Shown here: positions 10,986-64,000 of the stretch, piece by piece
How positions within the stretch are numbered: the first letter of the stretch is position 1
How the letters are laid out: each line of letters opens with the position of its first letter
DNA from: a virus
Virus record (IMG/VR): IMGVR_UViG_3300010413_000005
Location: 1-64,000 of that record
DNA length: 64,000 nt
Direction: 5' to 3' (one strand)
The notes under the pieces: generated by a model
What the model saw: only the letters and a program-made list of their open reading frames with translations
What the model was told of the DNA's origin: nothing
Database searches by the model: none
Translations under genes and position numbers: made by a program

Positions 10986-11201
10986 CTAATTCACTTTCAC
11001 GTAACGTACGATTTGATCTTTAGTGTCGAAAACGACATTGCGGTTGCGGTTATCTAAACGTTCGATATCTCTGCGAAGAACTTCTCTTTCTTTCACGGCC
11101 CAAAGGCCTAGCTCGTTCGCCATTTCCGCAAGTTGCTCTATTCTATCATCGGACATTCTTCCTCGATCGTCTTCGCTGATCTTCTCGTACCTTCTTGCCA
11201 T
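10986..11201 (-). CDS. Small charged hypothetical protein (71 aa)
   Basis: First gene after promoter P1, with a 33-base leader. The ATG at 11201 follows AAAGGGAGAGACGAAG. Mostly helical and charged (RYEKISEDDRGRMSDDR start). Family not recognised. Confidence 0.6.
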   Translation of the reverse strand: MARRYEKISEDDRGRMSDDRIEQLAEMANELGLWAVKEREVLRRDIERLDNRNRNVVFDTKDQIVRYVKVN

Positions 11202-11793
11202 CTTCGTCTCTCCCTTTTTCTCGTTGCTCTCCATACTTTAAACATAGCGCGTTTTTTGCTTCCAGGCAAGAACTTTTTTCAACTTTTTTTGATTTTTTTT
11301 TGCTACGTCGTTTTTTGAATCCCCAAAACGTGTTTACGTAGTCCGGAGGTCCGGCGATGCGAATCCATCCCGCCCTAACAGCGCGCGGAATGTCCATATT
11401 CCCTCCCCAATGCATAGCTTCGGGCAACGGATCGGCCGGAGGATTGTCTATGAACGCGTACGCCCATTCTCGAGCTTCCAGCCACCAACTCGCTTTGCCA
11501 TGTTTTGGGTTCTCGAACGTGCTGTTCCAGATGTTGTTGGCTCTATCGTTGGCGCGATCGAATACCGCGCAGTATGCTACGATTTGTCGATAGAAGGAAC
11601 GACCGGTCAAAGCAGCTTGCTTTTTCAACACCCAAGCTATCGCGTCTCTCTCTTTCGGTTTCCTACAAGTATCGCATTCGGCTCTAACGCATTTTGCCAA
11701 CGCCAAAGCTGTTTTCTGTTTAGACTCCGCTTGCGCGTAAACCGTAGAATACGCGCAAGCGACCAATACCGCGGAGATTACTAACACCCTCAT
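11146..11793 (-). CDS. Secreted SleB/transglycosylase-like cell-wall hydrolase candidate
   Basis: MRVLVISAVLVACAYSTVYA looks like a cleavable signal peptide. The mature part has ERDAIAWVLKKQAALTGRS, an Ala/Trp helix and PLPEAMHWGGN, an order that recalls SleB-type wall hydrolases (inference, by eye only). The frame runs on through promoter P1 and into the next gene as a basic tail. If the run of six A before CGACGTAG had seven, the protein would stop at 11303, before the promoter, after about 163 residues. A one-base loss or slippage is likely, so the true 3' end is uncertain. Start overlaps the previous stop (TAATG). Confidence 0.45.
   Translation of the reverse strand: MRVLVISAVLVACAYSTVYAQAESKQKTALALAKCVRAECDTCRKPKERDAIAWVLKKQAALTGRSFYRQIVAYCAVFDRANDRANNIWNSTFENPKHGKASWWLEAREWAYAFIDNPPADPLPEAMHWGGNMDIPRAVRAGWIRIAGPPDYVNTFWGFKKRRSKKKSKKVEKSSCLEAKNALCLKYGEQREKGRDEDGKKVREDQRRRSRKNVR
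11241..11269 (-). promoter_or_regulatory. Promoter P1
   Basis: Minus strand TTGCCT (11264-11269), 17 bp, TATGTT (11241-11246), with an A-rich upstream element (AAAAAAAGTTGAAAAAAGTT). Sequence and spacing match five other operon-start promoters in the window. It drives the gene starting at 11201. Confidence 0.75.
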
Positions 11794-21183: not shown

Positions 21184-21552
21184 TCAAGGATCGTCGCAGA
21201 CCGCGTTATGGATCTGCATCAATCGCTCCTTTTCGTTTTCGAGCACACTGAGAAGAATTTCCGCATCATTACAATATTTAGCCACGGTTTCGTCTTCGGT
21301 TTCTATCAAGTTGCAAGCAGCAACAAACCTCCTTTTCCAGACGTTATATGACTTTTCCACAACGACTGCTCGGTCTAGCGCTGCTTGCTTGTTCTCGTCT
21401 GTACATGCGTCGGTTATGAATCCGTCCACGACGTCGCCGGCCGAACTGATGATGTCGTCCGGATTACTCGATGGCGGACCGCTCCCTAGCAATGAACAAC
21501 CCAGCAGCGCGAATACAATGAAAAATGCGCACGCTATTGCTATTCGTTTCAC
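21184..21552 (-). CDS. Small lipoprotein (122 aa), GTG start
   Basis: Signal peptide with clear lipobox FALLGCSLLG; Cys19 would be lipidated. The mature protein is helical with four more Cys (disulfides possible outside the cytoplasm). GTG start behind AAAGGAGATAGAC. Could be an outer-membrane spanin-like subunit or a surface-exclusion protein; not decidable from sequence. Confidence 0.6.
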   Translation of the reverse strand: MKRIAIACAFFIVFALLGCSLLGSGPPSSNPDDIISSAGDVVDGFITDACTDENKQAALDRAVVVEKSYNVWKRRFVAACNLIETEDETVAKYCNDAEILLSVLENEKERLMQIHNAVCDDP

Positions 21553-21612: not shown

Positions 21613-22149
21613 TTATACGGGTTTGTTTCCGTGTCTATATTCCCTGGTCCAGTTGTATTTCATTTTGATGATAAGGTGAGCTGAAGCGAGCTTTTTGACC
21701 ATAGCCATAGCTTCCAGAATTCTGACTATCGCATCCGACATTTCGATCGGGAATCCCTCCGGCTTGCCCGTAGTCTCGTCATAATACACTTCCATATTTC
21801 CACTTCTCAATTCTTCTAAAGCCTCGCTCAATTCGGAATGCGCCAAAGCTATTTTGGCCGTCAACTCTAACGGAGTAGGATTTTCGATCCACCAACCCTT
21901 GGACTTCGACCACTCTTCTATCTCTTTCGTCAAACCGTCGAAAGTAAGCGATCCGGCATCGTGATTCTCGCACAAACCGGACTTGGCACAATCGCAACTC
22001 GGTCGCTGTAAGTTGGCTCGTTGCTCTCTTTCCCGTATTGCTTTTTCTCGTTCGTCCAATTCGAGCTTTACGTTGCGCAGATACAATACAGAAAATAAAC
22101 CGACGATAATGACGGATACGCCTACCAATAACATGATTATTTGATACAT
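21613..22149 (-). CDS. Membrane-anchored MazG-like pyrophosphohydrolase
   Basis: Residues 3-25 form a transmembrane helix, followed by a charged helix and CDCAKSGLC. From residue ~75 to the end the sequence fits MazG-like phage enzymes: EIEEWSKSKGWW, AKIALAHSELSEALEELRSG (metal-binding Glu residues), GKPEGFPIEMSDAIVRILE and a YNWTREYRHGNK end. Such enzymes cut (d)NTPs to monophosphates. An N-terminal membrane anchor is not usual for the family. Starts behind GAGGAGAGCGTAG. Confidence 0.75.
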   Translation of the reverse strand: MYQIIMLLVGVSVIIVGLFSVLYLRNVKLELDEREKAIREREQRANLQRPSCDCAKSGLCENHDAGSLTFDGLTKEIEEWSKSKGWWIENPTPLELTAKIALAHSELSEALEELRSGNMEVYYDETTGKPEGFPIEMSDAIVRILEAMAMVKKLASAHLIIKMKYNWTREYRHGNKPV

Positions 22150-22745
22150 CTACGCTCTCCTCTTCTGCCGCTCAATCCGCGCTCTCCGGGCAGATTGCAA
22201 TCGGCGACGAAACGAGGTTTGGCTTTCTCGTTTTCGTATTTCGCTCTCCACTTTTCTGATTTCTCTTCCGATTTGTAAATCTTATTTTCCAAGCTCCTGA
22301 TATTCCTTCTCAGTCGCGCTCGCTCTTTCGATAACTTCCCCACCTTGTTTTCTAATGAACTCACGGTCCGAGACACTCTGCCCAATTTTGTCTTCAGAAA
22401 TCCGCATTCACGTAAATGCGCTTTCGACTTATCGCGCAATCTTACCAATTCCAATGAATTGTATTGCGCTTTTGCTACATGTTCTTCGCGTCGTTCCAAT
22501 TCGGATAAAACGTGGGACATAGCTTCCATAACTGCTACGAAATCGTTGTGCGCGTTTACGAATCTAGATGCCAATTTGTCGCAATCGGCGCCTCCGTTTA
22601 TCCACGCTACCTTTTCGCCTGTTTGCGCGTCCACTATTTTGATGCCGGAATCATACGAAACGGATTCGTACGTTCCGATGTCGTCCTTCCAACGAGTCCG
22701 TATCTCTTCTATTCCGTCGACTCCGGACTTGCTTCTCAATACCAT
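22137..22745 (-). CDS. Coiled-coil hypothetical protein (202 aa)
   Basis: About residues 65-175 are a long heptad-patterned helix rich in Lys, Glu, Leu and Arg. The N-terminal 60 residues are mixed, and the end is basic with GERGLSGRRGERR. Overlaps the membrane-anchored MazG gene. Function unknown. Confidence 0.6.
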   Translation of the reverse strand: MVLRSKSGVDGIEEIRTRWKDDIGTYESVSYDSGIKIVDAQTGEKVAWINGGADCDKLASRFVNAHNDFVAVMEAMSHVLSELERREEHVAKAQYNSLELVRLRDKSKAHLRECGFLKTKLGRVSRTVSSLENKVGKLSKERARLRRNIRSLENKIYKSEEKSEKWRAKYENEKAKPRFVADCNLPGERGLSGRRGERRCIK

Positions 22746-22807: not shown

Positions 22808-23305
22808 TCAATTGGAGCAAGCCCAAGTCTCTACATTGTTCAAATAATTGCCGTCTTCCCAGAGACGCGGATCGGCGTGGTCATGGTCCGCGTCTCCTAA
22901 AATCCGATAGGACAACGCGTGTATGTATTCGTGTTTCAGCGAATCCTCCATGAACAGCAGATTGCCTACGTCTAACACATATATTTGCTTGTTTTTAGCG
23001 AGGTGGCATCCGGCGACCATTTTCCCTTCCGGAAGGTTCTCTGGAATGCAATTTGAAGGCAATTCGTCTACGATAACGACCGGGATACTCTTGACATCTT
23101 GATACGCTTCGTACGGGATTTCTTTTCCCATTACTTGTTCCCAAGCATCCACAGTCCCTTTGAATGCGTCCATGAAATCCAAAGTCGGTTTTTCTTCGAC
23201 GACCGGATTGGTGCAACCGAAAGATAGCGCCAAAAAAATCAACGACGCAAAGACCGTTTTGTATCCTCTTCTTCGTCCAATTGTTTGATCAATTCGTCTG
23301 TCCAT
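22808..23305 (-). CDS. Lipoprotein with HEXXH zinc-protease-like motif (paralogue 1)
   Basis: Signal segment VFASLIFLALSFGC with likely lipidated Cys31. HEYIHAL at 125-131 is a zincin-type zinc site. Upstream AGCHLAKNKQIYVLD and downstream ADPRLWED, then NNVET, are shared with the lipoprotein at 62026-62559. Either a zinc peptidase acting in the periplasm or a protein that keeps only the fold. Roles in wall digestion, superinfection exclusion or maturation are all possible. The start at 23305 lies inside the upstream gene. Confidence 0.65.
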   Translation of the reverse strand: MDRRIDQTIGRRRGYKTVFASLIFLALSFGCTNPVVEEKPTLDFMDAFKGTVDAWEQVMGKEIPYEAYQDVKSIPVVIVDELPSNCIPENLPEGKMVAGCHLAKNKQIYVLDVGNLLFMEDSLKHEYIHALSYRILGDADHDHADPRLWEDGNYLNNVETWACSN

Positions 23306-24545: not shown

Positions 24546-24851
24546 CTATTTTGTGTTTTTGTTCAAATCGAAGTCGCAAAGCAAAAGGAGGTGTTTATCC
24601 TCCGTCCATTCGTATTCACAGCTGTGCGGTATTTCTTTGAGTTCGCGTCCGGTCCTCTCTTTTACCAACTCGGATATCGTCTGTACTGTCTTCAGTACGA
24701 CCGGAGCTGTTTCGAAAGCGGTTTGCAGCGTAGCGCAAGCCACCCAAGTAAAAAACATTCCGAAGAAAGTCACGAACGCTACGATTTTCAAATCGGCCTT
24801 GTGTCCTAAATAATACAAACAATTGTCCACGAATTCTATAATTCTTTTCAT
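24546..24851 (-). CDS. Single-span membrane protein (101 aa)
   Basis: A membrane helix (IVAFVTFFGMFFTWVACATL, residues ~23-42) follows a short basic start. The remainder is helical, then an acidic, Cys-containing tail. Starts behind TTGGAGTTATC. Function unknown; holin-like or spanin-like roles are guesses only. Confidence 0.55.
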   Translation of the reverse strand: MKRIIEFVDNCLYYLGHKADLKIVAFVTFFGMFFTWVACATLQTAFETAPVVLKTVQTISELVKERTGRELKEIPHSCEYEWTEDKHLLLLCDFDLNKNTK

Positions 24852-40684: not shown

Positions 40685-43600
40685 CTATTTGTAGTTGTAA
40701 ATTTTCAAAGCTGTACCGCAGAAGTAACTCGTGCTTCTTCTTCGATCTGATTTCTTCTCTACTTCTACGGCTATCATCTTACCTATGGAAATGTGTTTGC
40801 TAATACTTCTCCAAGTGCTGGCAAAACTTATGATTTCTATGAGTTTTCCGTCCGCACTTATCAATCCTAAGAAGGCCATTTCATTGCCGTTCTTATCGTA
40901 TTTTTTTCGCACGTTAGTTACGATACCTGTATAAAATCCACCTTCTTTGGACTTATGAAATTTGTAATTGGTAGTTCTAATTTCCTTGATTTTGTCATTT
41001 TTCCATTTATAAGTAAGCGCCGGATGCTTTCCGGTGGCTATCAATTCCCAAACGTTCAATTGTTCCCAAGATTGTATTTTGGATCGAAGAGATTCCAAGT
41101 TTACAGCGAAATGCGCTTTCAGATTCTCGTATTTGGCGTTGGGAGTTACACAAGCGATTACCGGAGTGCCTATTCCCTTATCTATGATCGCTCTGTATTC
41201 ATCGAATACGTCGATATCGAACTTGGTCCGATACTGTTTTCCTCCCGGATCTTCCAAGTTGACGTTGGCGTAGCGCGCGCCCCAAAACATCTCTTTTCGT
41301 TCTCTTTCGGACGGCAAGTCTCCGGTGTGAAAGTCGCCTATTTGATTGTATTTGACTTCTACTATGACCGCGGCGACGATACATGCTTTATTCCCGTAAT
41401 CGGCGAAAAAGTCTTCATCACTCATAGAAACTATCGGCAATTTGATATTTTCTTCTATGAAGTCCTTGTACGCTTCTATGGGGTGCGTCCCGAGCGCTAG
41501 CGGATTCACTTCTGAAGAAATCAAACACAAATCTTCTTTTGAGTATTCTTCGGCGCCCTTCGCTTCTTCCAACATAGCGATGACGTCGGCATACTTCTTC
41601 TTAGCCACCAACGCCCAAATAGATTCCAGATTCTCTACCATCCATTTGACGCTGGGAACCATCCCCTCAAGAGCTCCGGCCTTGGACAGAGCCATAACGA
41701 CTCCTTTGTGGCATTTTCTCGCGTCGACTCTAGATATGAAATCCACGAAATCTTTGAATGGCTGATTGGCCATAATAGTATCTGCGGCCGCCGATCCGAC
41801 TCCTTTGATATCTATCAACGAACCTCTGATAGAACGATCGGCCGCGTCCATACTGAAATGCTTCTTGCTGACGTTGATATGCGGAGGTTTCAATTCTATT
41901 CCGTAATTTTTCTTGGCTGCTTTGGCCAATCTTTGTATCCGAACGCGCTCCGGTTCGTTCTTGAGCAACGCCCAATAGAACTCTAACGGATAATGTATCT
42001 TCAACCACATGGTCCAATAGCCTATCAACCCGTATTCGGTAGCGTGCGAATTGTGCGACACTACCGGAGGCGAATCCGGGCTGTGTCCCGCTACGAAATT
42101 GTGTCCTACGGAATCCATCTCCAAATCGTAACAATGCTCTTTACCGTTGGGCGTTATTTTGATTATTTTATCCGCGAAAGTAGGACGGCCCTTGCCCCAA
42201 CGCTTTGTCCTCTCTCCCTTTTCGTAATCCAATTTCTTGTGACAAGAATTGCACAACAAACGCAAATTGGCTTTGCTGTGAAAGGCGGCATGGTTGTAAT
42301 CGCATTCGGCTGGAGATTTGATGTGCGCCACTTCTCCGCCACCTCTGCCTTGGCGACAAATTGTACCGCAATTAGAACATCTGCTATCGGATTCTATCCA
42401 AACTTGCTCTACTTTCAATTTGTATTTGTCGTTGATACGATCCGCTTGGGCGAATCTGGTATCTTTGTTCATCCACCACGGACAATAATCCTTAGCGGTA
42501 TTTTCTCCCATAAACATCAATTCGTCGCCGACAGACAAGCCGGTAGCTATCGATTTGTACCCCCTAGAAGTCATCAACCTGTGCATTCGGCTGATGGCCG
42601 GAGTTTTGTTGCCGGATTCCGTTTCTATGACAAACGTTTCGCGAATGCCGTGATCATGTATTCCTATTAGACGTGCCGGCCGAACGCGCCCATCTTCGTC
42701 CATTTGCAAAAGATGTAATCGACCACCTCTTATCTTTTTCGCTATCGGAGTCAAACGTCCTTTTTCGTCTCTAGAATCTCTCAAACGAACCAACTCTCCG
42801 ATTTGTATTTGCGATTTAGAATGGCTATTAGCTCCTGGCTTCCAAACCCATGCGTTTTTACATATAGTCTTGTTAAATCCGTACGAGCCAAAAAATGTTA
42901 TCGCGTCCATTATCTTATTGGCAGTTTTCGCGTCGACTCCGGCGTGTTTAGCGGCGCCTTCAACGAACTTCGCGCGTTCTTTCCCCAAAGTCTCGTCGCC
43001 TATCTTCTTGGCTATCGTTTTGCGCAATGAATCCGCGGTTCCGGGAGCGAATCCGGCGATGTCTGTGAATATGCGTATAACGTGTTCTTGGTAAACTATG
43101 ATCCCCAACGTGTCCGATGTTATTTCCGATACCTTTGGGTGGAAGTCTACCTTTTTGGCCAACTTCGGATTCTTTTTGCGTTGTATGTACTTCGTAGCCA
43201 AGCCGGACCGAGCGGTCCCTGGTCTGTTCAACGCAGTCATGGCAGGTATGTCTTCGAAGTCGGTGAAGTTGATACCCATGCAAATCTTATCAGCGCTAGG
43301 CGTATCGTATTGGAAAATTCCGTCGTATTTGTGATCAGTGAATCCCTGTAGCGTTTCCGGATCGTTCAAATCGAAGTCGTCGGATTCCAAGTCCAATTTC
43401 TCTCCGGTATTCTCTTCGATCGCTTCCAAACATTCTTTGATGACGGTGAGAGTTCTCAAACCCAACACGTCTATTTTCACCAATCCCACCGCGGCGACGT
43501 TGTACATGTCGGTTGCTGTGACCACTACCGAATCGCCTCCGGATTCCGCTTTACGAACTTCCAACGGCAATAAATCGGTCAACGGGACCGGAGATGCTAC

Positions 43601-45322
43601 GACTCCGGCCGCGTGTATGCCCGGATTCTTAGCCAATCCTTCCAGGCTCTTGGCGTGATAGAGCACCTTTGGATATTTCTTATCGAATTTTCTACACACG
43701 TCGAAGTCTTTGAACGAATCGGCTATTGTCTGACTGGCGCGTTCGTCTCCGCTCGAACGCTCGATGATGCTTTTGGTTACTTGATTGACTTCCGACAACG
43801 GAACTTCCAAAACGCGAGAAACGTCCTTCAAACATTGTTTACCGGATAGTTTGCCCACGGTTGCGATCTGAGCCACTTTATCGCGCCCATACTTACTCAC
43901 CAAATATTCAAATATCTCTTGTCGTCTTCTGTCTTCGAAATCACAATCGATATCCGGCAAGTCGATACGATACGGATTCATGAATCTTTCGAATATCAAT
44001 CCGTGCTCCAGCGGATCGACAGAGGTTATTCCGAGCAAATATGCCACCAAACATCCTCCTACGGAACCGCGTCCTGGTCCGCACATGATTCCGGAGCTTC
44101 GAGCGAATTTGTACAAGTCTCTGATTATCAAGAAATACGGCACGAATTTCAATTTTACAATTGAACCCAATTCGTACTTCAACCTGTTTCCGTACGTCTG
44201 TATAGCGTCTTCGTAACTCACCCCGTTTTTGGCAGAGTATTTACGCGCTCGGGATTTGATATTCCTCCAAGCCCATCCTTCTAAACACAAATCTTTTAAA
44301 TAAGCTGTTTGATCTCCGCGATATTTATCAGGTACGGATAAGTCGGGCAACAAGGCTTGGTGGTAATCGACTTTGAATTCCACGTTACACATTTCTGATA
44401 ACTTCACAGTTGAATTCAAAGCTTCCTTGACGTCTGTTACGGAGAAAAACGGATGGTATTTGAAGAAAGCGGATTTCATTTCTTTCCGCTTTCTCATATG
44501 AAATTCGTTCCCGTCGAATTTGAATCTGTTCGGATCGCTCATGAAGTTATTCGTACCGATACACAACAAAACCTCGTGATGTTCGGAATCGCTCTGGTGT
44601 ACGTAGTGCGCGTCTTGTGTTGCCAACAGCCTATTGGACTTCCCGTATCTCTTGCGCAACTCGAGAGCGAATTTGTTGGCCGTCAATTGGTCCGGAATGT
44701 TGTGCGGTTGGACCTCAATCCACAGATTACTACCGAACTCATCTCTCAATCGATCGGCAAATTCGATCGCGAACCTTTTCTTACCCAGCACGCATGAATC
44801 GTATACCGGACTAGCCAGACATCCCGTGCCCAAACTGATTCCTTCTTTGTACTCGCACAAAGCTTCAAGATCGATTCTCGGTTTGTAATAAAATCCGTCG
44901 ATGTAAGCCGAACTGGACAGTCTGAATAGGTTCTTCAATCCCTCCGAGTTGTGCGCCCAAGCCGTTATGTGCCAGCGTTTTGATATGCCGTGTTTCTCTT
45001 CGTATTCCTTGATGACTTTCTTGGCTTCTGCTCCCTTCTTGCCTTCTGAAATCTCGTTCTTTTCCTCCGCGGTCAATCCCTTCCTGTGCATATTATTACA
45101 CACGTAAAATTCGATTCCGTATATCGGCTTCACGTCGGTTCCCTTGCACTCTTCGTATTGGTGCATATATCCGCGCATGGTTCCGTGATCGGTAAAAGCG
45201 ATCGCCGGATTGCCTCTTTGTTTGGCTTCTTCTACGTAGTCCTTGATTTTACTTCCACCATCCAAAGTAGAATTATCACTATGCGTGTGCAAGTGTACGA
45301 AGTCTTCTTTTTTATTTGGCAT
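40685..45322 (-). CDS. dnaE: DNA polymerase III alpha subunit (DnaE-type) with intein
   Basis: Extein of about 1274 residues. PHP domain starts VHLHTHSDNSTLDGG (His10, 12, 14); GPGRGSVGGCLVAYLLGIT precedes palm motif PDIDCDFEDRR (Asp457, 459, 461); fingers and thumb follow. The intein occupies 821-1091 between YGFNKTI and SHATEYG. A replicative polymerase of the bacterial C family for phage DNA synthesis; no intrinsic DnaQ exonuclease is seen. No sliding clamp or clamp loader is seen in this window, so host ones may be used or lie elsewhere. Upstream genes of the modification-like operon overlap it. Confidence 0.95.
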   Translation of the reverse strand: MPNKKEDFVHLHTHSDNSTLDGGSKIKDYVEEAKQRGNPAIAFTDHGTMRGYMHQYEECKGTDVKPIYGIEFYVCNNMHRKGLTAEEKNEISEGKKGAEAKKVIKEYEEKHGISKRWHITAWAHNSEGLKNLFRLSSSAYIDGFYYKPRIDLEALCEYKEGISLGTGCLASPVYDSCVLGKKRFAIEFADRLRDEFGSNLWIEVQPHNIPDQLTANKFALELRKRYGKSNRLLATQDAHYVHQSDSEHHEVLLCIGTNNFMSDPNRFKFDGNEFHMRKRKEMKSAFFKYHPFFSVTDVKEALNSTVKLSEMCNVEFKVDYHQALLPDLSVPDKYRGDQTAYLKDLCLEGWAWRNIKSRARKYSAKNGVSYEDAIQTYGNRLKYELGSIVKLKFVPYFLIIRDLYKFARSSGIMCGPGRGSVGGCLVAYLLGITSVDPLEHGLIFERFMNPYRIDLPDIDCDFEDRRRQEIFEYLVSKYGRDKVAQIATVGKLSGKQCLKDVSRVLEVPLSEVNQVTKSIIERSSGDERASQTIADSFKDFDVCRKFDKKYPKVLYHAKSLEGLAKNPGIHAAGVVASPVPLTDLLPLEVRKAESGGDSVVVTATDMYNVAAVGLVKIDVLGLRTLTVIKECLEAIEENTGEKLDLESDDFDLNDPETLQGFTDHKYDGIFQYDTPSADKICMGINFTDFEDIPAMTALNRPGTARSGLATKYIQRKKNPKLAKKVDFHPKVSEITSDTLGIIVYQEHVIRIFTDIAGFAPGTADSLRKTIAKKIGDETLGKERAKFVEGAAKHAGVDAKTANKIMDAITFFGSYGFNKTICKNAWVWKPGANSHSKSQIQIGELVRLRDSRDEKGRLTPIAKKIRGGRLHLLQMDEDGRVRPARLIGIHDHGIRETFVIETESGNKTPAISRMHRLMTSRGYKSIATGLSVGDELMFMGENTAKDYCPWWMNKDTRFAQADRINDKYKLKVEQVWIESDSRCSNCGTICRQGRGGGEVAHIKSPAECDYNHAAFHSKANLRLLCNSCHKKLDYEKGERTKRWGKGRPTFADKIIKITPNGKEHCYDLEMDSVGHNFVAGHSPDSPPVVSHNSHATEYGLIGYWTMWLKIHYPLEFYWALLKNEPERVRIQRLAKAAKKNYGIELKPPHINVSKKHFSMDAADRSIRGSLIDIKGVGSAAADTIMANQPFKDFVDFISRVDARKCHKGVVMALSKAGALEGMVPSVKWMVENLESIWALVAKKKYADVIAMLEEAKGAEEYSKEDLCLISSEVNPLALGTHPIEAYKDFIEENIKLPIVSMSDEDFFADYGNKACIVAAVIVEVKYNQIGDFHTGDLPSERERKEMFWGARYANVNLEDPGGKQYRTKFDIDVFDEYRAIIDKGIGTPVIACVTPNAKYENLKAHFAVNLESLRSKIQSWEQLNVWELIATGKHPALTYKWKNDKIKEIRTTNYKFHKSKEGGFYTGIVTNVRKKYDKNGNEMAFLGLISADGKLIEIISFASTWRSISKHISIGKMIAVEVEKKSDRRRSTSYFCGTALKIYNYK
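42050..42862 (-). other. HNH-containing intein in the DNA polymerase
   Basis: A 271-residue intein: Cys1 (CKNAWVWKPG, block A), block B with GNKTPAISRMHRLM (His), an HNH nuclease CSNCGTICRQG, HIKSPAECDYNHAA and NLRLLCNSCHKKLD, blocks F/G ending VVSHN before Ser+1. All splicing residues (Cys1, block-B His, His-Asn, Ser+1) are present, so it should splice. The nuclease may make it mobile. The N-extein ends GFNKTI where a plain GFNK would be expected next to SHATEYG; the extra TI may be part of the insertion site. Confidence 0.9.
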
Positions 45323-51209: not shown

Positions 51210-52209
51210 CTGAAAGCTTTTTTACCAGTTGTGAATACCAAGTCACGTAATCTGACACATATTTCCAAGTGTATTCAGCTCCTGAAACACCTCCTGTAAT
51301 CAAATTGTATTTACCCTCTAAAACCAAAGTCTTATGAATCTTTCCCTTCTTCAAGAACAGTACCGCTCCCCAATGGTAGTAATGAACCTCTCTCGCCCAT
51401 TCTCCGGCCGATTGGATATCCCTGGCCGGATCGTTAGGTCTGGGATCAAGATTGCGTTTCTTGATTATCTTTCTGACGAAATCGTAATCGAATTTGTTAT
51501 TCTTGCTTAGGTGTATCATGGGCCAAGTACCCTTGTCTATATATATCTGTGATATCTCGGGAAATTCTGATTCTGCCAGATACGTAAACGCCCTCCTGAT
51601 TCGTAGGCTGGAATAGTCGACCGCGTTCTTGCTCACACCGATATACTTGGCTATCAATCCGTTGGTCATCTCGGATTCGCCTTCGTTGTCCATGAAAATC
51701 ATGAACGCCTCCGGTGGATGACACATGATATCCAAAACGGTCCGATCTCGTTCGCACAACTTGTTTCTCAATTTCATTTTCAATTCCAGGCGACGCTGGT
51801 TGTCTTCGGATTGTTCGTAAACGGAATACGGATCCGGGATGTCTCCCTTGATAGTTTCTCCGGATTGCTCGGCCATCTCTTCTATCGAGACTAACTGCCA
51901 AGCCTGTTTGGAAACTATCATCCGTCCGTTTCTTTCTTGAACTACGTGCGGAACCTTGGAATTGGTCATAGAATTCTGTATTATTCTTATGGCTTCGTAT
52001 CTCAAAACCTTACTGACGAATCTGTGGAATTTACCTCTTCCGGCGTTGAAATCGTACGAATCGAAACACCTCTGAAACATGGCCACGCGCAATTCTTGCA
52101 TTGCGTCGTCGAACGGGATACCGGAAGCGATGTTGATTTTTCTAGCGTGCGTTTTCAGAATTGGCCATACGTGCTTTTCCAAATCCGCGTACAATTCTTG
52201 TAAAACCAT
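51181..52209 (-). CDS. Divergent sigma70-family factor
   Basis: IPFDDAMQELRVAMFQRCFDSYD and FHRFVSKVLRYEAIRIIQNSM resemble sigma region 2 (core binding, -10 recognition). ERDRTVLDIMCHPPEAF then GLIAKYIGVSKNAVDYSSLRIRRAF fits region 4 with a helix-turn-helix. No region 3 is obvious; a ~120-residue C-terminal extension is unique. It may program late transcription while the RpoD-like factor at 16.8 kb serves another stage (inference). Start at 52209 behind AAAAAGGGAGATCGAA. Confidence 0.7.
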   Translation of the reverse strand: MVLQELYADLEKHVWPILKTHARKINIASGIPFDDAMQELRVAMFQRCFDSYDFNAGRGKFHRFVSKVLRYEAIRIIQNSMTNSKVPHVVQERNGRMIVSKQAWQLVSIEEMAEQSGETIKGDIPDPYSVYEQSEDNQRRLELKMKLRNKLCERDRTVLDIMCHPPEAFMIFMDNEGESEMTNGLIAKYIGVSKNAVDYSSLRIRRAFTYLAESEFPEISQIYIDKGTWPMIHLSKNNKFDYDFVRKIIKKRNLDPRPNDPARDIQSAGEWAREVHYYHWGAVLFLKKGKIHKTLVLEGKYNLITGGVSGAEYTWKYVSDYVTWYSQLVKKLSDARKQKKVP

Positions 52210-53824
52210 TTCGATCTCCCTTTTTACCGAACAACTTCTTTCCCAGACCACTGTACAAAGCCAAGGGTAAATCATCCAATTTCATTATCGCGGAACAAAC
52301 GGCTCCGGTTTTCTGATTGTAAAATGCGGCCACATCTATAGTAAGCACGCCTATGGATATCACTTCTATTCCGGATTTCGTTATCGTTTCCACAGATTCA
52401 GCCAAATGGTTGGCTAAAATACCACTGTCGCATCCGTACGCCAAGGGCGCTCCGTCCGACAATACAATCAACACTTTGCGCTTTTCTTGTCGCACTATCA
52501 AACGTTTAGCAGCAGACAAAATCGCTTCTCCGTCCGCGTTATCCATGTATCCGTCGATGAAAGAGAATCTACTTCTGCACACATTTAGTCTTTCATCGAA
52601 TTCCTTGAATACTATGTAATCGAACGGCGCTCGAGCCTGATATATCTCGTCTTCGAAGTTGATTCCCTTCGGATATCTTTCCACATTGTTGTGAAATCCC
52701 AATACTTCAAACGGGATTCCCAATCTCTCTATGGTGTCGGATAATCCTACGGCGGATACTCTTACGTGCCAAGCCTTGGTCTTTTTCTTTTTCGCCTTGC
52801 CCATGGAACCGGACAAGTCAATCAAAATCAATATCGCTGTTGAAGTATCGACCGGAGCTCCGCGTTCATAATGCACGTTTCGATTACCGGTTATGACCGA
52901 ATGTAGAGAAGAAGAATCCAGAAATCCGCTATCTCGGTCGCCGATCGGAGCGCGTTCCTTTTCCGCTCTCATTGTTTCGATAATCGCCCTGCGCATCGCC
53001 GAAGCATTCTTCTTCGTTTCTGACAAGTCGGATACGAACGTGGACGCGTTTCCGGTAGTCGGTTTCACCCAACGGTCCATGGCCAAACAATCCGGATGCG
53101 GAATGTATCTGCCATTCTTCAACACGTCGTTCTTTGATTCCTGTTCGATTTTGTCTTTCAATCGCGATTTGAAATCGAAAGATTGCTCTCCGGCCGGAGG
53201 GATGAACGAAATCATAGGAGATATCTTCTTGGCCAATTCGTATGTACTTTCGGAATCGGCAAGCGATTTCACAGACAAAAACATCTCAGATATCGGTTCG
53301 TATTCGGATCTAACGTGATCCGGAATCCACCTCAAATCCAGATTCAACCCGTCGGATATCGCTGCGCACAAAAGCATTTTGAAGTCGGACAATTCTCCGG
53401 CCTTGGATTGCTTCTCTAACAACTTCGACGCCTCATTGTTGGAGAAATCCAGATTGTCTTTCATTCCCGGATAAATCGCGCCGTATTTCAATTCTATTCT
53501 GATGTCTTCCAAAGCGTTGAATGCCGACTTCACTTTCACGTCGGATTCGTTTTTGTACAGATCTACGGCGCCCCTCAAACCGCGATTCTTGGAATACACT
53601 TCTTCGGCCGCGTGACACAATTCGTGATCCAGTTCTCCGTTCAACGCGCGCATTGAGGACTTGCCCAGTTTGTCCGAATTGTAAGGCAATCTTATCACGG
53701 TTCCGTCGAAATCACAACGGCATCCGGTCATTTCCACTGATACGTGGTAATTGTTCGATATCGCGCGCGCTATGTTAGCGAACGGAGTCTCCAGCTTCCG
53801 GAGGTGTTGAACAGATTTTTTCAA
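52142..53824 (-). CDS. CobT-like VWA protein with HEXXH motif
   Basis: The C-terminal half has a von Willebrand A fold: ILILIDLSGSMGKA (MIDAS Asp336, Ser338, Ser340) and VLIVLSDGAPLAYG. The N-terminal half has DHELCH (His67-Glu68-His71), a zinc-protease-like motif, and acidic helices. It pairs with the MoxR-type ATPase directly upstream, as CobS/CobT or MoxR/VWA pairs do to remodel a target. TTG start behind GGAGGAACTAC. Function unknown in phage. Confidence 0.8.
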   Translation of the reverse strand: MKKSVQHLRKLETPFANIARAISNNYHVSVEMTGCRCDFDGTVIRLPYNSDKLGKSSMRALNGELDHELCHAAEEVYSKNRGLRGAVDLYKNESDVKVKSAFNALEDIRIELKYGAIYPGMKDNLDFSNNEASKLLEKQSKAGELSDFKMLLCAAISDGLNLDLRWIPDHVRSEYEPISEMFLSVKSLADSESTYELAKKISPMISFIPPAGEQSFDFKSRLKDKIEQESKNDVLKNGRYIPHPDCLAMDRWVKPTTGNASTFVSDLSETKKNASAMRRAIIETMRAEKERAPIGDRDSGFLDSSSLHSVITGNRNVHYERGAPVDTSTAILILIDLSGSMGKAKKKKTKAWHVRVSAVGLSDTIERLGIPFEVLGFHNNVERYPKGINFEDEIYQARAPFDYIVFKEFDERLNVCRSRFSFIDGYMDNADGEAILSAAKRLIVRQEKRKVLIVLSDGAPLAYGCDSGILANHLAESVETITKSGIEVISIGVLTIDVAAFYNQKTGAVCSAIMKLDDLPLALYSGLGKKLFGKKGDRNGFTRIVRGFGKARMANSENAR

Positions 53825-54936
53825 GTAGTTCCTCCGAAATGTCTCTGTACCAATCCGCCTACGAAAACGGAATCCGAAGCGTCCATCTTATTCAATATGG
53901 TGATTCGCGCCGCTCGAGTTACATCTTTCAGTTTCAAATTTTTGCGCGACCATTCGATCAACGACCGAGTTGAAATGGACGAATAGCAATCTCCTCTACT
54001 GCAAGACTCTCTAACCATGTTGGCCAATCTGACCATCTTGGTCGCCGTTCGGTCGTCTATTCCCTTACACCGCTTCATCAATATGGATTTTTCCACTTTC
54101 GGACTCGGGAACGTCATATATATCACGACTCCGAACCGATCGACGAATGACTCTTTTTGAGGCAAATCATTACATGTAGCGATGATTCTGAAATTGGGAT
54201 CGAATTCGATCGATCTGCCTCCGTCTCCGGTGATTACCAGCTGGCGAGGTTTGGTCATGGCGGTGTACAACGAAAACGATATGTGTCCGGGCATCGCTTC
54301 GACTTCTTCCAACAGTAGCCAATAACCGCGATCGGCCGATATCGGTAGCGAACCGTCAAACCATTCGGTTTTTGATTGCCCGGTCTTCTTGTCGATGGTC
54401 ACACCCTTTTCTCCGATGAATTCGGCTTTGCGCATATCCCCATCGTTTTGTACCCTCAATACCGGTTGATTGCAGATCGAAGCCAACTCCATAACCAGGG
54501 TGGATTTACCGACTCCGACCGGTCCGTGTATCAGAACATTGTCGTCATCTTCGATTCCCAAAGACAACTCCTCAAGATGACCCGCTTCTCGATCTGATAT
54601 GATCCATTCCGGATCATGTATCGGAACCATTTTGGAATCTCTCTCCGAGAGCTCTCTTTTGAAAGAAGGACTCGCAGCCCCTATTCTGAATACTGTAAAA
54701 GATGATCCGGTTCCCGGATCGACTCCGATTATGTTATGGCGACTTGCCTCTTTGCGCAATTGGTGCGCTGCGTCGCTGACCGTCGGAGCTCCGGGATACT
54801 TGTTCAGATACGCGATGACGTCCATATCGTGTTTCTTGTTCACGTGGACGTCTAATCGATGATACCATTGTCCGCATTCTTTACACTGTATTTTTTTGCG
54901 GCCTTTTCCGTCAATGCTGCTAGTAGGATCTCCCAT
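53821..54936 (-). CDS. MoxR/CobS-like AAA+ ATPase with N-terminal zinc-finger-like domain
   Basis: CKECGQWYHRLDVHVNKKH (18-36) is a C2H2-like knuckle, followed by a MucR-like DVIAYLNKYPGAP helix. The AAA+ core has GPVGVGKST (Walker A), YWLLLEEVEAM (Walker B), FRIIATCNDLPQ (sensor 1) and FVDRFGVVIYM (Arg finger region). Partner of the VWA gene. It directly follows promoter P6 with nearly no 5' leader. Confidence 0.85.
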   Translation of the reverse strand: MGDPTSSIDGKGRKKIQCKECGQWYHRLDVHVNKKHDMDVIAYLNKYPGAPTVSDAAHQLRKEASRHNIIGVDPGTGSSFTVFRIGAASPSFKRELSERDSKMVPIHDPEWIISDREAGHLEELSLGIEDDDNVLIHGPVGVGKSTLVMELASICNQPVLRVQNDGDMRKAEFIGEKGVTIDKKTGQSKTEWFDGSLPISADRGYWLLLEEVEAMPGHISFSLYTAMTKPRQLVITGDGGRSIEFDPNFRIIATCNDLPQKESFVDRFGVVIYMTFPSPKVEKSILMKRCKGIDDRTATKMVRLANMVRESCSRGDCYSSISTRSLIEWSRKNLKLKDVTRAARITILNKMDASDSVFVGGLVQRHFGGTT

Positions 54937-60322: not shown

Positions 60323-61804
60323 TTAGTCATCGGAAGATTCTTTCACAGTCACGCTGAATTCGGACTCCGAGCGATAAACCTTCAATCGCTCTTTGGAATG
60401 CTTAGTGAAGTACGAATTGGTGTGGTCCATGAAATCTATCAAGGTCGCTTCCGTTTTGCCCTCTGCGATCGTCATGTTTCTCATGCGTTGGATGGTAGCC
60501 TTGGCGTCTCTTCCACCTTCAGCGTTGATGACGCATTCGATCTCGGGAATGTCTATCCCTTCTCCGAATACGGTTCCTATCAATATGTTGAAGTCGCCGC
60601 TCAAGTAATCGTCTATCACTTCTTGTCGTTTGTGTTTTTGATGTTTGCCAACTACCACACCGTATTGTGCCCCTCTTGATTCCAAGGCGTCTACTATCAT
60701 CTGTATCTGCTCAAGGCTGTTAGAGACCACAAGGACTTTCATCCTATGGGCAAATTGATGTGCCAACGCAGCGATTCTATCATTTCGATACTCGTTCGCT
60801 ACGATACCGCGGCGCCGGAGCGTTTGACTCCATTTCATGTGAGCTATGTTGTCCGGTTTCCTGATCGGATAGACCAACACGTTTTGTCGCATGAGAAATC
60901 CGTCTTTTATGAGCCTGGAAGACGGAACGTCGATTCTAATCGGTCCGCATGAAGCTTTGAGCCAAATGACTCCCATCGACTGTTCTCTTTTATTGTCCAA
61001 TAACGCGGTCGCCGAAAGTCCTATTTTGAATCGAGCGTCGAAGTCCTGTATGGTCTTGTGCCATTCTCCGGTCCCTTTGAAATGGTGAAATTCATCAGCT
61101 ATGATAACGTCGATTCTCTTTATCAAATCGGCGTATCGCGGATCTCTGGGAACTGTCTTCCATTTGCCATGCTTGTCTTTGTAGCGCCGGCCTCTCAATA
61201 AAGTGAGCGTTTGAGCAGTCGCGACCGTAATGAACTTGGGATCGAATTCGGAGTCTCCTATGATTCCGATTTCAGTACACAAAGCTTCTTCGAGAGAGCT
61301 TATCGTTTGATACAGAAGCATTTGCGACGGAACTATGAACAGAGTCGAATGGCCTAATATGGATATGATTCGAGCAGCGGTTTTCGTTTTACCGCTTCTT
61401 ATGGGCATCTTGATGATGCCGTTGCCGAATAATCGAGCCTTTCTTATGTCCCGAGTTACCGAAAGAACTGCCTCTAATTGGTAGTTTCTCAGTTGGATGT
61501 TTTCGTTCCAATTGATTTTTCGTCGTTCTGTATGTACTTTTCTCAAGTCGACTACGTCGTAATCCACTTTCCATTCTTTCAGCACCTCCGCGACGTCTTC
61601 GAGCATTCCGATCGGGACCGTGTATCCGCGTTTTTCGCTGAAAGTCAACAAATGAGTTCGTCCATCCCAGAATCCGCTTTTGAAGCTCGGAGCGAATCGA
61701 TGCCCGGCGACCAGATAACTGGTGACTTCCTTTATGGCCTTGATCACACTGATGTGTACGCCTTCCAACGTGATCAATCGATTATCCAATATCAATCTGG
61801 GCAT
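60323..61804 (-). CDS. SF2 DNA helicase (UvsW-like)
   Basis: After an N-terminal ~110-residue domain, RNYQLEAVLSVTRD (Q motif), GIIKMPIRSGKTKTA (motif I), VIIADEFHHFKG (motif II, DEFH), IGLSATALLDN (motif III), LIGTVFGEGIDIPEIE (V) and an RMRN motif VI. 493 residues. T4 UvsW has the same class and remodels branched DNA and R-loops, which fits the recombination genes nearby. The start is uncertain: ATG at 61804 or GTG at 61843; neither has a clear ribosome-binding site. Confidence 0.85.
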   Translation of the reverse strand: MPRLILDNRLITLEGVHISVIKAIKEVTSYLVAGHRFAPSFKSGFWDGRTHLLTFSEKRGYTVPIGMLEDVAEVLKEWKVDYDVVDLRKVHTERRKINWNENIQLRNYQLEAVLSVTRDIRKARLFGNGIIKMPIRSGKTKTAARIISILGHSTLFIVPSQMLLYQTISSLEEALCTEIGIIGDSEFDPKFITVATAQTLTLLRGRRYKDKHGKWKTVPRDPRYADLIKRIDVIIADEFHHFKGTGEWHKTIQDFDARFKIGLSATALLDNKREQSMGVIWLKASCGPIRIDVPSSRLIKDGFLMRQNVLVYPIRKPDNIAHMKWSQTLRRRGIVANEYRNDRIAALAHQFAHRMKVLVVSNSLEQIQMIVDALESRGAQYGVVVGKHQKHKRQEVIDDYLSGDFNILIGTVFGEGIDIPEIECVINAEGGRDAKATIQRMRNMTIAEGKTEATLIDFMDHTNSYFTKHSKERLKVYRSESEFSVTVKESSDD

Positions 61805-61886
61805 AGAAGTGCGACGAATTTGAAAAATAATTCGTAGTATCACGCGCGTCTAGCGCGATATGAAATTAATTAGCGCGAACGGAAAA

Positions 61887-62024
61887 TTATTCTGAAGTGA
61901 CTTGTTCTACTTTGTCTTTGGTTTTTTCTGCGTCGTCGGAGCTAAGATATCCTAATGAATACAGAATTGAGATGGCAGCGGTGATTACCGCGGCGATTAT
62001 CGCGCTAATTTGCTTCTTACTCAT
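61887..62024 (-). CDS. Mini membrane protein (45 aa)
   Basis: KKQISAIIAAVITAAISILY forms one membrane helix near the N-terminus; the tail is charged. ATG behind an excellent AGGAGGAGTGAC and overlapping nothing upstream. Together with the lipoprotein gene, likely part of the envelope/lysis group (inference). Confidence 0.65.
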   Translation of the reverse strand: MSKKQISAIIAAVITAAISILYSLGYLSSDDAEKTKDKVEQVTSE

Positions 62025-62025
62025 G

Positions 62026-62559
62026 TCACTCCTCCTGTTCGATTATGACCGGATGTTCTTTGTCTCGTTTGAGCATCCTTTCCGTTATTGTTTCCACGTT
62101 GTTCACATTTTCGTTATCTCTTTTCTTGTACGGATCTTCTTCGGTGCTGATTCGCGTCCACAATCTTTCGTCGTAGTGATACGGAACGGCTAGAGCTCCT
62201 TGTTCGCAATCAGCCAAGGCATGAATCGCTTCGTGCATCATGGTGTGCTTGAAAGCGGTTCCTTTCAAATCGCTGGCGATTGCTATTTCGTTTTTATCGT
62301 AAGTGGTGCAACCAGCTATCGAATCCTTGGTTCTACCGTTACAAGTTATAGGTCTGTCTTTGATTATCACATCGTAATTGAAAAGGTCCGCGTAGCACCG
62401 ATCGCTTACCCTCCATATCATCATGTCCCAAGCTGCGACCGAGATCAACATCTCGGGATATTCGACTTGTTCGCCTGGACGCAGTTCGTACGGATCCGTT
62501 TGGCAGGCGGACGATATCGCGAGCGCCAACCCGATTAGTAGTATGTTCAACTTTTTCAT
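62026..62559 (-). CDS. Lipoprotein with HEXXH zinc-protease-like motif (paralogue 2)
   Basis: Signal peptide LLIGLALAISSAC with likely lipidated Cys19. MMHEAIHAL (His109-Glu110-x2-His113) is a zincin motif. Shared with paralogue 1 (22808-23305): AGC-x2-3-KN-x-I before the helix, DxRLW and NNVET after it. Five more Cys may form disulfides. Possible periplasmic peptidase involved in wall access or exclusion; unproven. Behind AAAGGTTTGTAA. Confidence 0.65.
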   Translation of the reverse strand: MKKLNILLIGLALAISSACQTDPYELRPGEQVEYPEMLISVAAWDMMIWRVSDRCYADLFNYDVIIKDRPITCNGRTKDSIAGCTTYDKNEIAIASDLKGTAFKHTMMHEAIHALADCEQGALAVPYHYDERLWTRISTEEDPYKKRDNENVNNVETITERMLKRDKEHPVIIEQEE

Positions 62560-62586: not shown

Positions 62587-64000
62587 TCACGGAAGTGTAA
62601 CACTGGATTGTAGAACGTTATCGTTGATAACAGCTCCGGTTCCAGTATTTTGGATCGCAGGAGTCGTGGTGTATTCATTCAAACAGATATTTTCCGTTAC
62701 GATGTTATAATTTCCACTAGATAGATTGATCCAATCGTTATTGCCCATTCCGACCGAATTCGAGTTGGCAAAAAGGTGATTGGCGTGTACTCGTAATGAT
62801 TGGTGAAGCGTTCCAGCCTTGATGAATTCTCCTTCGTATTCCATGGTGAATTCGCAATTTTCTACTGATCCGCCATTGTGAAGAGAACTATCGGAGAACT
62901 CAACAAGGAATGTATTGAACGCTCCGTTCGATCCTTGGTTGTTCCTTACCTTTCTAATCTGACAATTGTGCGCGTTGCTGACCCTGATGAATGTACGTCC
63001 GTAGCTCGCGTAATTGGAAGTCGTACTTGTGAAGTACCATTGCCCTCCGTATCCGTACAAGAACAAGTCTTCTAAAACACAATGGTCGCCTGTCACCTCT
63101 ATATACGATTTACTAGTCGGTTCCGGAGGTCTTGCCGAATTGTAGAATTCGAATCTGGCGTGAATTATTTTGCAATAATCTCCTGCCATTTCTATGCAAG
63201 ATTCGACGTTGCCGCTTCCGAGAGAAGTATCGAAATCTGTCAACATCTTGAGATTCATTATCGTCGTTTCACCCTTCATGGAAAAGAACGCGAAACCAGG
63301 AGAAACGACATCCCAAGAAGTAGGAATGAAATTCAATTCGAAACCGTCTACGAAACAATCCGTAAAGCAGAAGATTGAATCATTTCCCGGTCCGGCGATA
63401 TCTCGATCCATATACACACTTTGTACGTCTATCACGAGATCTCTGATTTTGCAATCCTGGAATAAAATCCATTCGTAATTGTGAATTGTTCTTTCATCTG
63501 TGGTTCCGGTCGCCTTCCTGAATTTGCAATTGTATAGTGTTCCTTCCTTGATTTTGATCATATGATCGGTAGCGCCGCTGAATCTCATGAAAGTAGCGTT
63601 CATATTGAAGCTGCAATCAATGTAATCGACGCCTTCTGTGTCTATCATACAAGGTTGGGAGGAGTTGTCTCTGTCCGCTTCTGCGCCGGAGAAATGGCAA
63701 CCTCTGAAAGTTCTTTGAGACGTTTCGTGTGAAGTTCCAGCAGAAGAAAGAACGAGTTTTCCGCTATCCGAATACACATAACAATTCTCGAATGAAACCT
63801 TGCGATTGCCACTAGTGATGCTTATGGCCGGAGTGTAATTCGCCGTTCCTCCGGCGTCGATGACGATTACACAACCGATGAAATGCGAATCTTCTCCGTC
63901 GACTACGAGAGCATTTTGTCCTGATTCTTTTTGGATGAATGCGCAATTTACGAAAACCTTTTTTCTGGAAACTGCGTATCCGTTGTTGTACGGCGATCCT
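62587..64000 (-). CDS. Beta-helical tail-spike-like protein (5' end beyond the window)
   Basis: Repeating short strands with Cys/Asn and small turns (NCEFTMEYEGEFIKAG, DCSFNMNATFMRFSG) give the look of a right-handed parallel beta-helix, as in phage tail spikes and capsule depolymerases. The same frame stays open upstream of the first possible start at 63777 to the window end (for example VNCAFIQKESGQ, HFIGCVIVIDAGG), so at least 471 residues are present and the gene starts outside. It would be on the virion and bind or cut surface polysaccharide (inference). Confidence 0.7.
   Translation of the reverse strand, partial: GSPYNNGYAVSRKKVFVNCAFIQKESGQNALVVDGEDSHFIGCVIVIDAGGTANYTPAISITSGNRKVSFENCYVYSDSGKLVLSSAGTSHETSQRTFRGCHFSGAEADRDNSSQPCMIDTEGVDYIDCSFNMNATFMRFSGATDHMIKIKEGTLYNCKFRKATGTTDERTIHNYEWILFQDCKIRDLVIDVQSVYMDRDIAGPGNDSIFCFTDCFVDGFELNFIPTSWDVVSPGFAFFSMKGETTIMNLKMLTDFDTSLGSGNVESCIEMAGDYCKIIHARFEFYNSARPPEPTSKSYIEVTGDHCVLEDLFLYGYGGQWYFTSTTSNYASYGRTFIRVSNAHNCQIRKVRNNQGSNGAFNTFLVEFSDSSLHNGGSVENCEFTMEYEGEFIKAGTLHQSLRVHANHLFANSNSVGMGNNDWINLSSGNYNIVTENICLNEYTTTPAIQNTGTGAVINDNVLQSSVTLP

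Follow-up and report, generated by a model that had tools for sequence, protein, structure and literature searches.

Two diverged phage paralogues predicted to be envelope-anchored zinc peptidases, one of them encoded beside the tail fibre gene

Few envelope proteases made by phages have, to our knowledge, been described. As a clear precedent in lysis we found just one, a phage-derived Listeria metzincin which, paired with a lipoprotein, makes Listeria more sensitive to lysis by phage (PMC8235301). VgrG2b, a gluzincin of the HEXXH...E type, is toxic from the periplasm and not from the cytoplasm (PMC6899460), and Llp of phage T5, an outer-membrane lipoprotein exposed to the periplasm, blocks FhuA and stops re-infection (PMC9586334). 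Here we compare with these systems two proteins, P0001 and P0002, encoded in a window that covers the first 64 kb of an IMG/VR virus record 113,818 bases long.

P0001 (177 aa; 62026..62559, minus strand) is a predicted lipoprotein with an HEXXH motif, encoded directly 3' of a tail fibre/spike gene, and P0002 (165 aa; 22808..23305, minus strand) is its paralogue, likewise a predicted lipoprotein with HEXXH. Both reading frames are present where the initial annotation had placed them and look coding in their own frame (scores 0.37 for P0001 and 0.25 for P0002, with a median gene at 0.30 and the other five frames negative), and each is preceded by a sequence resembling a ribosome-binding site, a Shine-Dalgarno-like AAAGG 5' of P0001 and AAGGA 5' of P0002. 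Scans for promoters and terminators gave results no better than chance. The motifs that had drawn attention to the pair are all there: HEAIHAL and HEYIHAL, DERLW and DPRLW, NNVET, and AGC...KNEI and KNKQI. At the DNA level the motif HExIHA..DxRLW occurs in the window at the P0001 and P0002 sites only (shuffle expectation 0.00).

P0001 and P0002 are diverged paralogues. They align by pairwise BLASTP at 26% identity over 153 columns (E 2e-6), form the best paralogue pair of the genome (all-against-all E 3e-4), and yield an alignment score for the mature proteins that none of 5000 shuffles reached. With HEXXH masked the score was reached by 3 of 5000 shuffles, and with HEXXH, RLW and NNVET all masked by 13 of 5000; shuffles are the sole control quoted for the pair, the reverse-sequence BLAST control having been spoiled by low-complexity acidic repeats. 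The two had been described as related but with little similarity outside the motifs; the first part of that description holds, while the second understates a kinship that extends beyond them. Their common C-terminal features are H-x-D-x-R-L-W and N-N-V-E-T. Besides the lipobox cysteine, two further cysteines align between them (C73/C86 and C84/C100), which would fit an oxidising compartment and an exported, disulphide-bearing protein.

It had also been suggested that the pair represents a wider phage family with its own C-terminal motif, and this is not supported by the collections that we scanned. Peptide, motif and profile scans found no further member in IMG/VR, the GTDB species genomes, GenBank phages or plasmids, and neither searches with one protein at a time nor a profile search built from both, in which the profile consists of two rows, returned relatives from IMG/VR or GTDB. 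Such scans need exact short peptides, a fixed motif or a two-row profile, and diverged members may exist. Among 50 related phage records, many of them fragments and with the phage's own genome as the sole positive control, no copy of either protein was detected. Since no other member was found, the "family" amounts to two paralogues in one genome, and two sequences are all that underlies its C-terminal motif. Scanned for the DNA motif, IMG/VR yielded seven stretches, of which six were out of frame or plainly unrelated; the seventh encodes a VWA protein, which contains HEVLHA..DPRLW but is no lipoprotein. The GTDB DNA motif scan and the NNVET scan gave no matches. A PaBG protein (tblastn E 10) without HEXXH was dropped, as was a Pectobacterium match (tblastn E 3) that runs antisense to the annotated genes and takes in residues 55-108 only.

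The lipobox noted earlier is borne out in both proteins, which match the PROSITE-type pattern and show the features of an Lgt/LspA-type lipoprotein signal: a positively charged n-region, a hydrophobic stretch (hydrophobicity about 2.0-2.1) and a lipobox ending in cysteine, C19 in P0001 (ISSAC; 62503..62505, minus strand) and C31 in P0002 (LSFGC; 23213..23215, minus strand). The chance of passing this test is about 0.0004 per gene (about 4 in 10,000 random N-termini of the same composition). P0001 and P0002 alone pass it in the greedy gene set, and two further lipobox ORFs, at 21184-21552 and 24546-24851, pass if tested separately. Judged from these N-termini, both proteins are probably anchored in the envelope; they would be exported by the Sec route and lipid-anchored at the N-terminal cysteine, facing the periplasm or the outside.

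Both are also probably zinc peptidases of the zincin fold, as predicted from sequence and structural models, although neither reaches the cut-off of any curated Pfam family and neither has a match among the NCBIfam and PADLOC families. P0001 matches the SprT-like family PF10263 at E 0.045 and 14 bits, below the 25.6-bit gathering cut-off, and P0002 has no match to it; PF06114 (Peptidase M78) does not appear, for P0001 or P0002, among the matches listed up to E 10. The one strong match in PHROGs is that of residues 60-116 of P0001 to positions 17-74 of 306 of phrog_1233, at E 4.3e-8, in an alignment that ends shortly after HEXXH; P0002 does not match phrog_1233. The same family matches orf3 of the Lactococcus prophage bIL285, which is annotated as a metallo-protease, lies directly beside a transcriptional-regulator gene and passes the Pfam cut-off for M78 (IrrE-like domain); a further match lies in a Deinobacterium genome. 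Since bIL285 orf3 is M78/IrrE-like, P0001 has a zincin core in its sequence.

AlphaFold models, for which the two-row alignment served as input, are of poor overall quality (mean pLDDT 57 for P0001 and 51 for P0002), with a reasonable core in P0001. In both, the predicted architecture runs from strands to the HEXXH helix and then to a C-terminal helix starting from NNVET, and in these low-confidence models HEXXH sits on an active-site helix after a beta-sheet, as in a zincin. The PDB neighbours of both models (Foldseek, VIA) are mainly zincins, namely selecase, IrrE/PprI, PPEP and deuterolysin, together with clostridial collagenases, Spartan, HtpX and VgrG2b, and the BFVD neighbours include many phage proteins named SprT, IrrE or metallopeptidase. 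The best PDB E value is 0.23 and VIA Z reaches 5.6, in the range that the tool calls a common arrangement. Foldseek uses sequence, so that part of the structural match comes from the HEXXH helix as such, and with individually low scores the models therefore support a fold class and not a family. A sequence search of the PDB found no solved structure similar to either protein; phmmer matches to an insect allergen and to KpsC were taken as chance. Taken together, the phrog_1233 match of P0001 and the mainly zincin neighbours of both models support a zinc-peptidase (zincin) fold, in line with the initial annotation.

In SprT-like peptidases the third zinc ligand is a His that stands about 13-15 residues downstream of HEXXH and precedes x(2-3) and an aromatic residue, in the motif H-G-x-x-W/F. 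The HEXXH of P0001 (HEAIH, H109-H113; 62221..62235, minus strand), the presumed zinc-binding and catalytic motif, lies on a predicted helix spanning residues 100-120, and that of P0002 (HEYIH, H125-H129; 22919..22933, minus strand) on a predicted helix spanning 118-136. One candidate for the third ligand is the conserved His of HxDxRLW, H128 in P0001 (x14 after HEXXH, in H128-Y-D-E-R-L-W; 62158..62178, minus strand) and H143 in P0002 (x13, in H143-A-D-P-R-L-W; 22859..22879, minus strand). The other is the conserved Glu of NNVET, E156 in P0001 (NNVET at 62089..62103, minus strand) and E159 in P0002 (NNVET at 22826..22840, minus strand), located where the predicted C-terminal helix begins, in a region of low model confidence. 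The third ligand may be either the His, as in SprT-like proteins, or the Glu, as in gluzincins. Zinc would be held by the two HEXXH histidines together with one of these residues, and the HEXXH Glu would act as general base.

P0001 had been placed beside the spike, correctly, for the tail fibre/spike gene lies directly upstream of it, with its 3' part at 62587..64000 in the window (minus strand; whole gene 62587-65616 in the record). On the other side is a gene for a 45-aa single-TM protein (61887..62024, minus strand), whose ATG comes one base after the P0001 stop and whose AGGAGGAG ribosome-binding site lies inside the end of P0001, an arrangement that makes translational coupling of the two likely. 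This small protein has a weak holin-like match (phrog_4712, E 0.06). The downstream flank of the slot thus delimited is a DNA helicase gene (60323..61843, minus strand), which serves as a synteny anchor.

Searching with the major capsid protein brought up 64 related IMG/VR stretches; GenBank phages are distant, the best helicase match being about 30% identical and the best terminase match about 28%. The same slot recurs in relatives between the helicase (40-58% identical; 46% in G042) and the tail fibre (62% identical over its length in G042, and represented by N-terminal parts in most others), and its contents were read in 11 of them. In G001 it holds an M15 endolysin with a PG-binding domain (Pfam), 57% identical to a homologue in G003, and a holin-like protein (phrog_1129/1299, E 0.002-0.003); in G042 an Rz-spanin-like protein (phrog_739, E 2e-4); in G039 a TM-anchored HEMIH protein; and in G005 a papain-like protease (L109:4868-5671; Pfam C1, above cut-off). 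Other small TM or signal-bearing proteins are encoded there too. The slot of G014 has a few soluble ORFs too, so that it is mostly, not exclusively, an envelope slot. From the spanin-like gene of the relative we infer a host that is probably Gram-negative. A search with the G001 M15 endolysin matched the G003 homologue and nothing in the window phage, in which no endolysin or spanin was recognised. By eye only, a 215-aa signal-peptide protein without Pfam or PHROG match (window 11146-11793) is a wall hydrolase candidate. Near the G005 papain-like protease is an ORF whose start, MKWLLLAALLCAC, is lipoprotein-like.

Membrane-anchored HEXXH proteins are encoded in related phages at L110:5249-5830 (G039), L082:2032-2580 (G042) and L024:991-1521, with motifs such as AHEMIHVRQ...AEHERSAY and EHEHFH...EEGAY. 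As homologues of P0001 and P0002 they were rejected (hhalign probability 0.5, no detectable homology), and envelope-anchored zincin-like proteins recur in the lineage in G039, G042 and L024. Near the major capsid gene of relatives, ORFs at L025:1-2280, L027:3-1340 and L037:1-876 carry HEAIHG, HEEIHG or HETIHG followed by an EE-rich, gluzincin-like segment, and the L027 ORF resembles by eye a MuF-type minor head protein, possibly a capsid-borne zincin.

P0002 sits 40 kb from P0001, outside the slot, among clustered genes for membrane proteins and nucleotide metabolism. A MazG-like protein with an N-terminal TM helix (21613-22149; phrog_3301, E 4e-23) is indeed encoded near it, but does not directly adjoin it as had been claimed, since a 202-aa coiled-coil ORF (22137-22745) lies between. 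The ORF at 21184-21552, beside this MazG-like pyrophosphatase gene, encodes a further predicted lipoprotein with an LLGC lipobox, and that at 24546-24851 is a TM/lipobox ORF of the same 20-25 kb cluster. Elsewhere in the window, by eye, a DnaE-type polymerase (40685-45322) carries an intein-like insertion between FNK and SHATEYG with an HNH-like Cys/His segment, and 52142-54936 encodes a CobT/VWA protein with HELCH beside an AAA-type ATPase, a MoxR-VWA-like pair.

Our preferred explanation, offered tentatively and at somewhat less than an even chance, is that P0001 and P0002 are envelope-anchored zinc peptidases and that P0001, acting late, helps to weaken the envelope at lysis. P0001, its synthesis probably late, following that of the tail fibre and coupled to that of the 45-aa membrane protein, would loosen envelope proteins while other phage proteins open membrane and wall; P0002 would probably be the same type of enzyme used at another time of infection. 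The bond most likely to be cut would be a peptide bond of a host envelope protein or of a peptidoglycan-linked peptide. The slot in relatives holds mostly lysis and envelope genes, which favours a part in lysis for P0001. Counting against it, the paralogue P0002 sits outside the slot, and since no copy could be detected in any of the 50 related records, neither protein is needed for lysis across the lineage.

If the lipoprotein were instead to cut or block a surface receptor, then re-adsorption of released particles, or of rivals, would be prevented. Such receptor shedding or superinfection exclusion seems to us somewhat unlikely, and we rank a lysis aid somewhat ahead of it for P0001. The position of P0001 directly downstream of a receptor-binding tail fibre gene, as for T5 Llp (PMC9586334), speaks for it, and the presence of a second copy outside the lysis slot would agree with a non-lysis role, but T5 Llp is a small protein that acts by binding and not by cutting, and the predominance of lysis and envelope genes in the relatives' slot points the other way.

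A broader reading, which we consider unlikely, is that the two lipid-anchored zinc peptidases cut host envelope proteins, that the slot is a swap site for unrelated envelope-acting enzymes (a lipid-anchored zincin, a TM-anchored zincin, a papain-like protease or an M15 endolysin), and that envelope proteolysis is part of lysis. Equally concerned with the envelope, though in our view quite doubtful, is a conditioning of the host in which the pair would process host envelope proteins throughout infection, P0002 early and P0001 late, which would mean maturation or shedding of a surface protein, or quality control. The clustering of P0002 with the lipoprotein, MazG-like and TM/lipobox genes described above is consistent with this, and cell morphology is disturbed by periplasmic zincins, VgrG2b among them (PMC6899460). 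Least probable, and very unlikely in our judgement, is a zincin fold that is not a working peptidase and serves in binding or structure, for example as an o-spanin replacement with the 45-aa TM protein, for although the tight coupling of a lipoprotein to a small TM ORF recalls two-component spanin pairs and the third zinc ligand has two candidates, the HEXXH His, Glu and His and HxDxRLW are kept in both copies despite differences at about 70% of positions, and the roughly 20 residues of the 45-aa protein outside the membrane are probably too few for the periplasm.

Were a lysis or exclusion role for P0001 true, some phages with spanin-bearing relatives would use a protease either to open the envelope or to protect it from re-infection, and a lipid-anchored zincin of the P0001 type would be a small secreted protease for study. 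The exchange of envelope enzymes at this one position throughout the lineage makes the idea testable by comparison.

Among known systems, the M78/IrrE-ImmA-like proteins (phrog_1233, PF06114) share with P0001 a core strand-strand-HEXXH-helix segment; the known members are cytoplasmic, of HELGH type and found near repressors or in DNA-damage control, whereas P0001 and P0002 are predicted exported lipoproteins. SprT-like and Spartan-Wss1 proteins (PF10263) have in common with the pair HExIHA, a His 13-14 residues on and then an aromatic residue, matched here by H..DxRLW, and Spartan 6mdx compares with a predicted model at VIA Z 5.6; they differ in that P0001 falls below the curated cut-off and that both of our proteins are predicted to be exported. 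Selecase/abylysin and the VgrG2b domain are similar in size to the pair and have an HEXXH helix followed by a C-terminal helix starting with a conserved Glu, a place that the Glu of NNVET may take in the pair, and selecase and VgrG2b are among the top structural neighbours of the low-confidence models, although VgrG2b is a T6SS toxin domain. Llp of T5 is a lipoprotein whose gene, like that of P0001, is adjacent to and downstream of a receptor-binding protein gene (PMC9586334), a likeness of gene position only, since Llp blocks FhuA by binding and is not an enzyme. Listeria Mtz/Tim offers, as predicted for the pair, an exported HEXXH protease of phage origin, and Mtz promotes phage lysis, but Mtz is a metzincin, Tim is a separate inhibitor-like lipoprotein cleaved by the protease, and the host is Gram-positive (PMC8235301).
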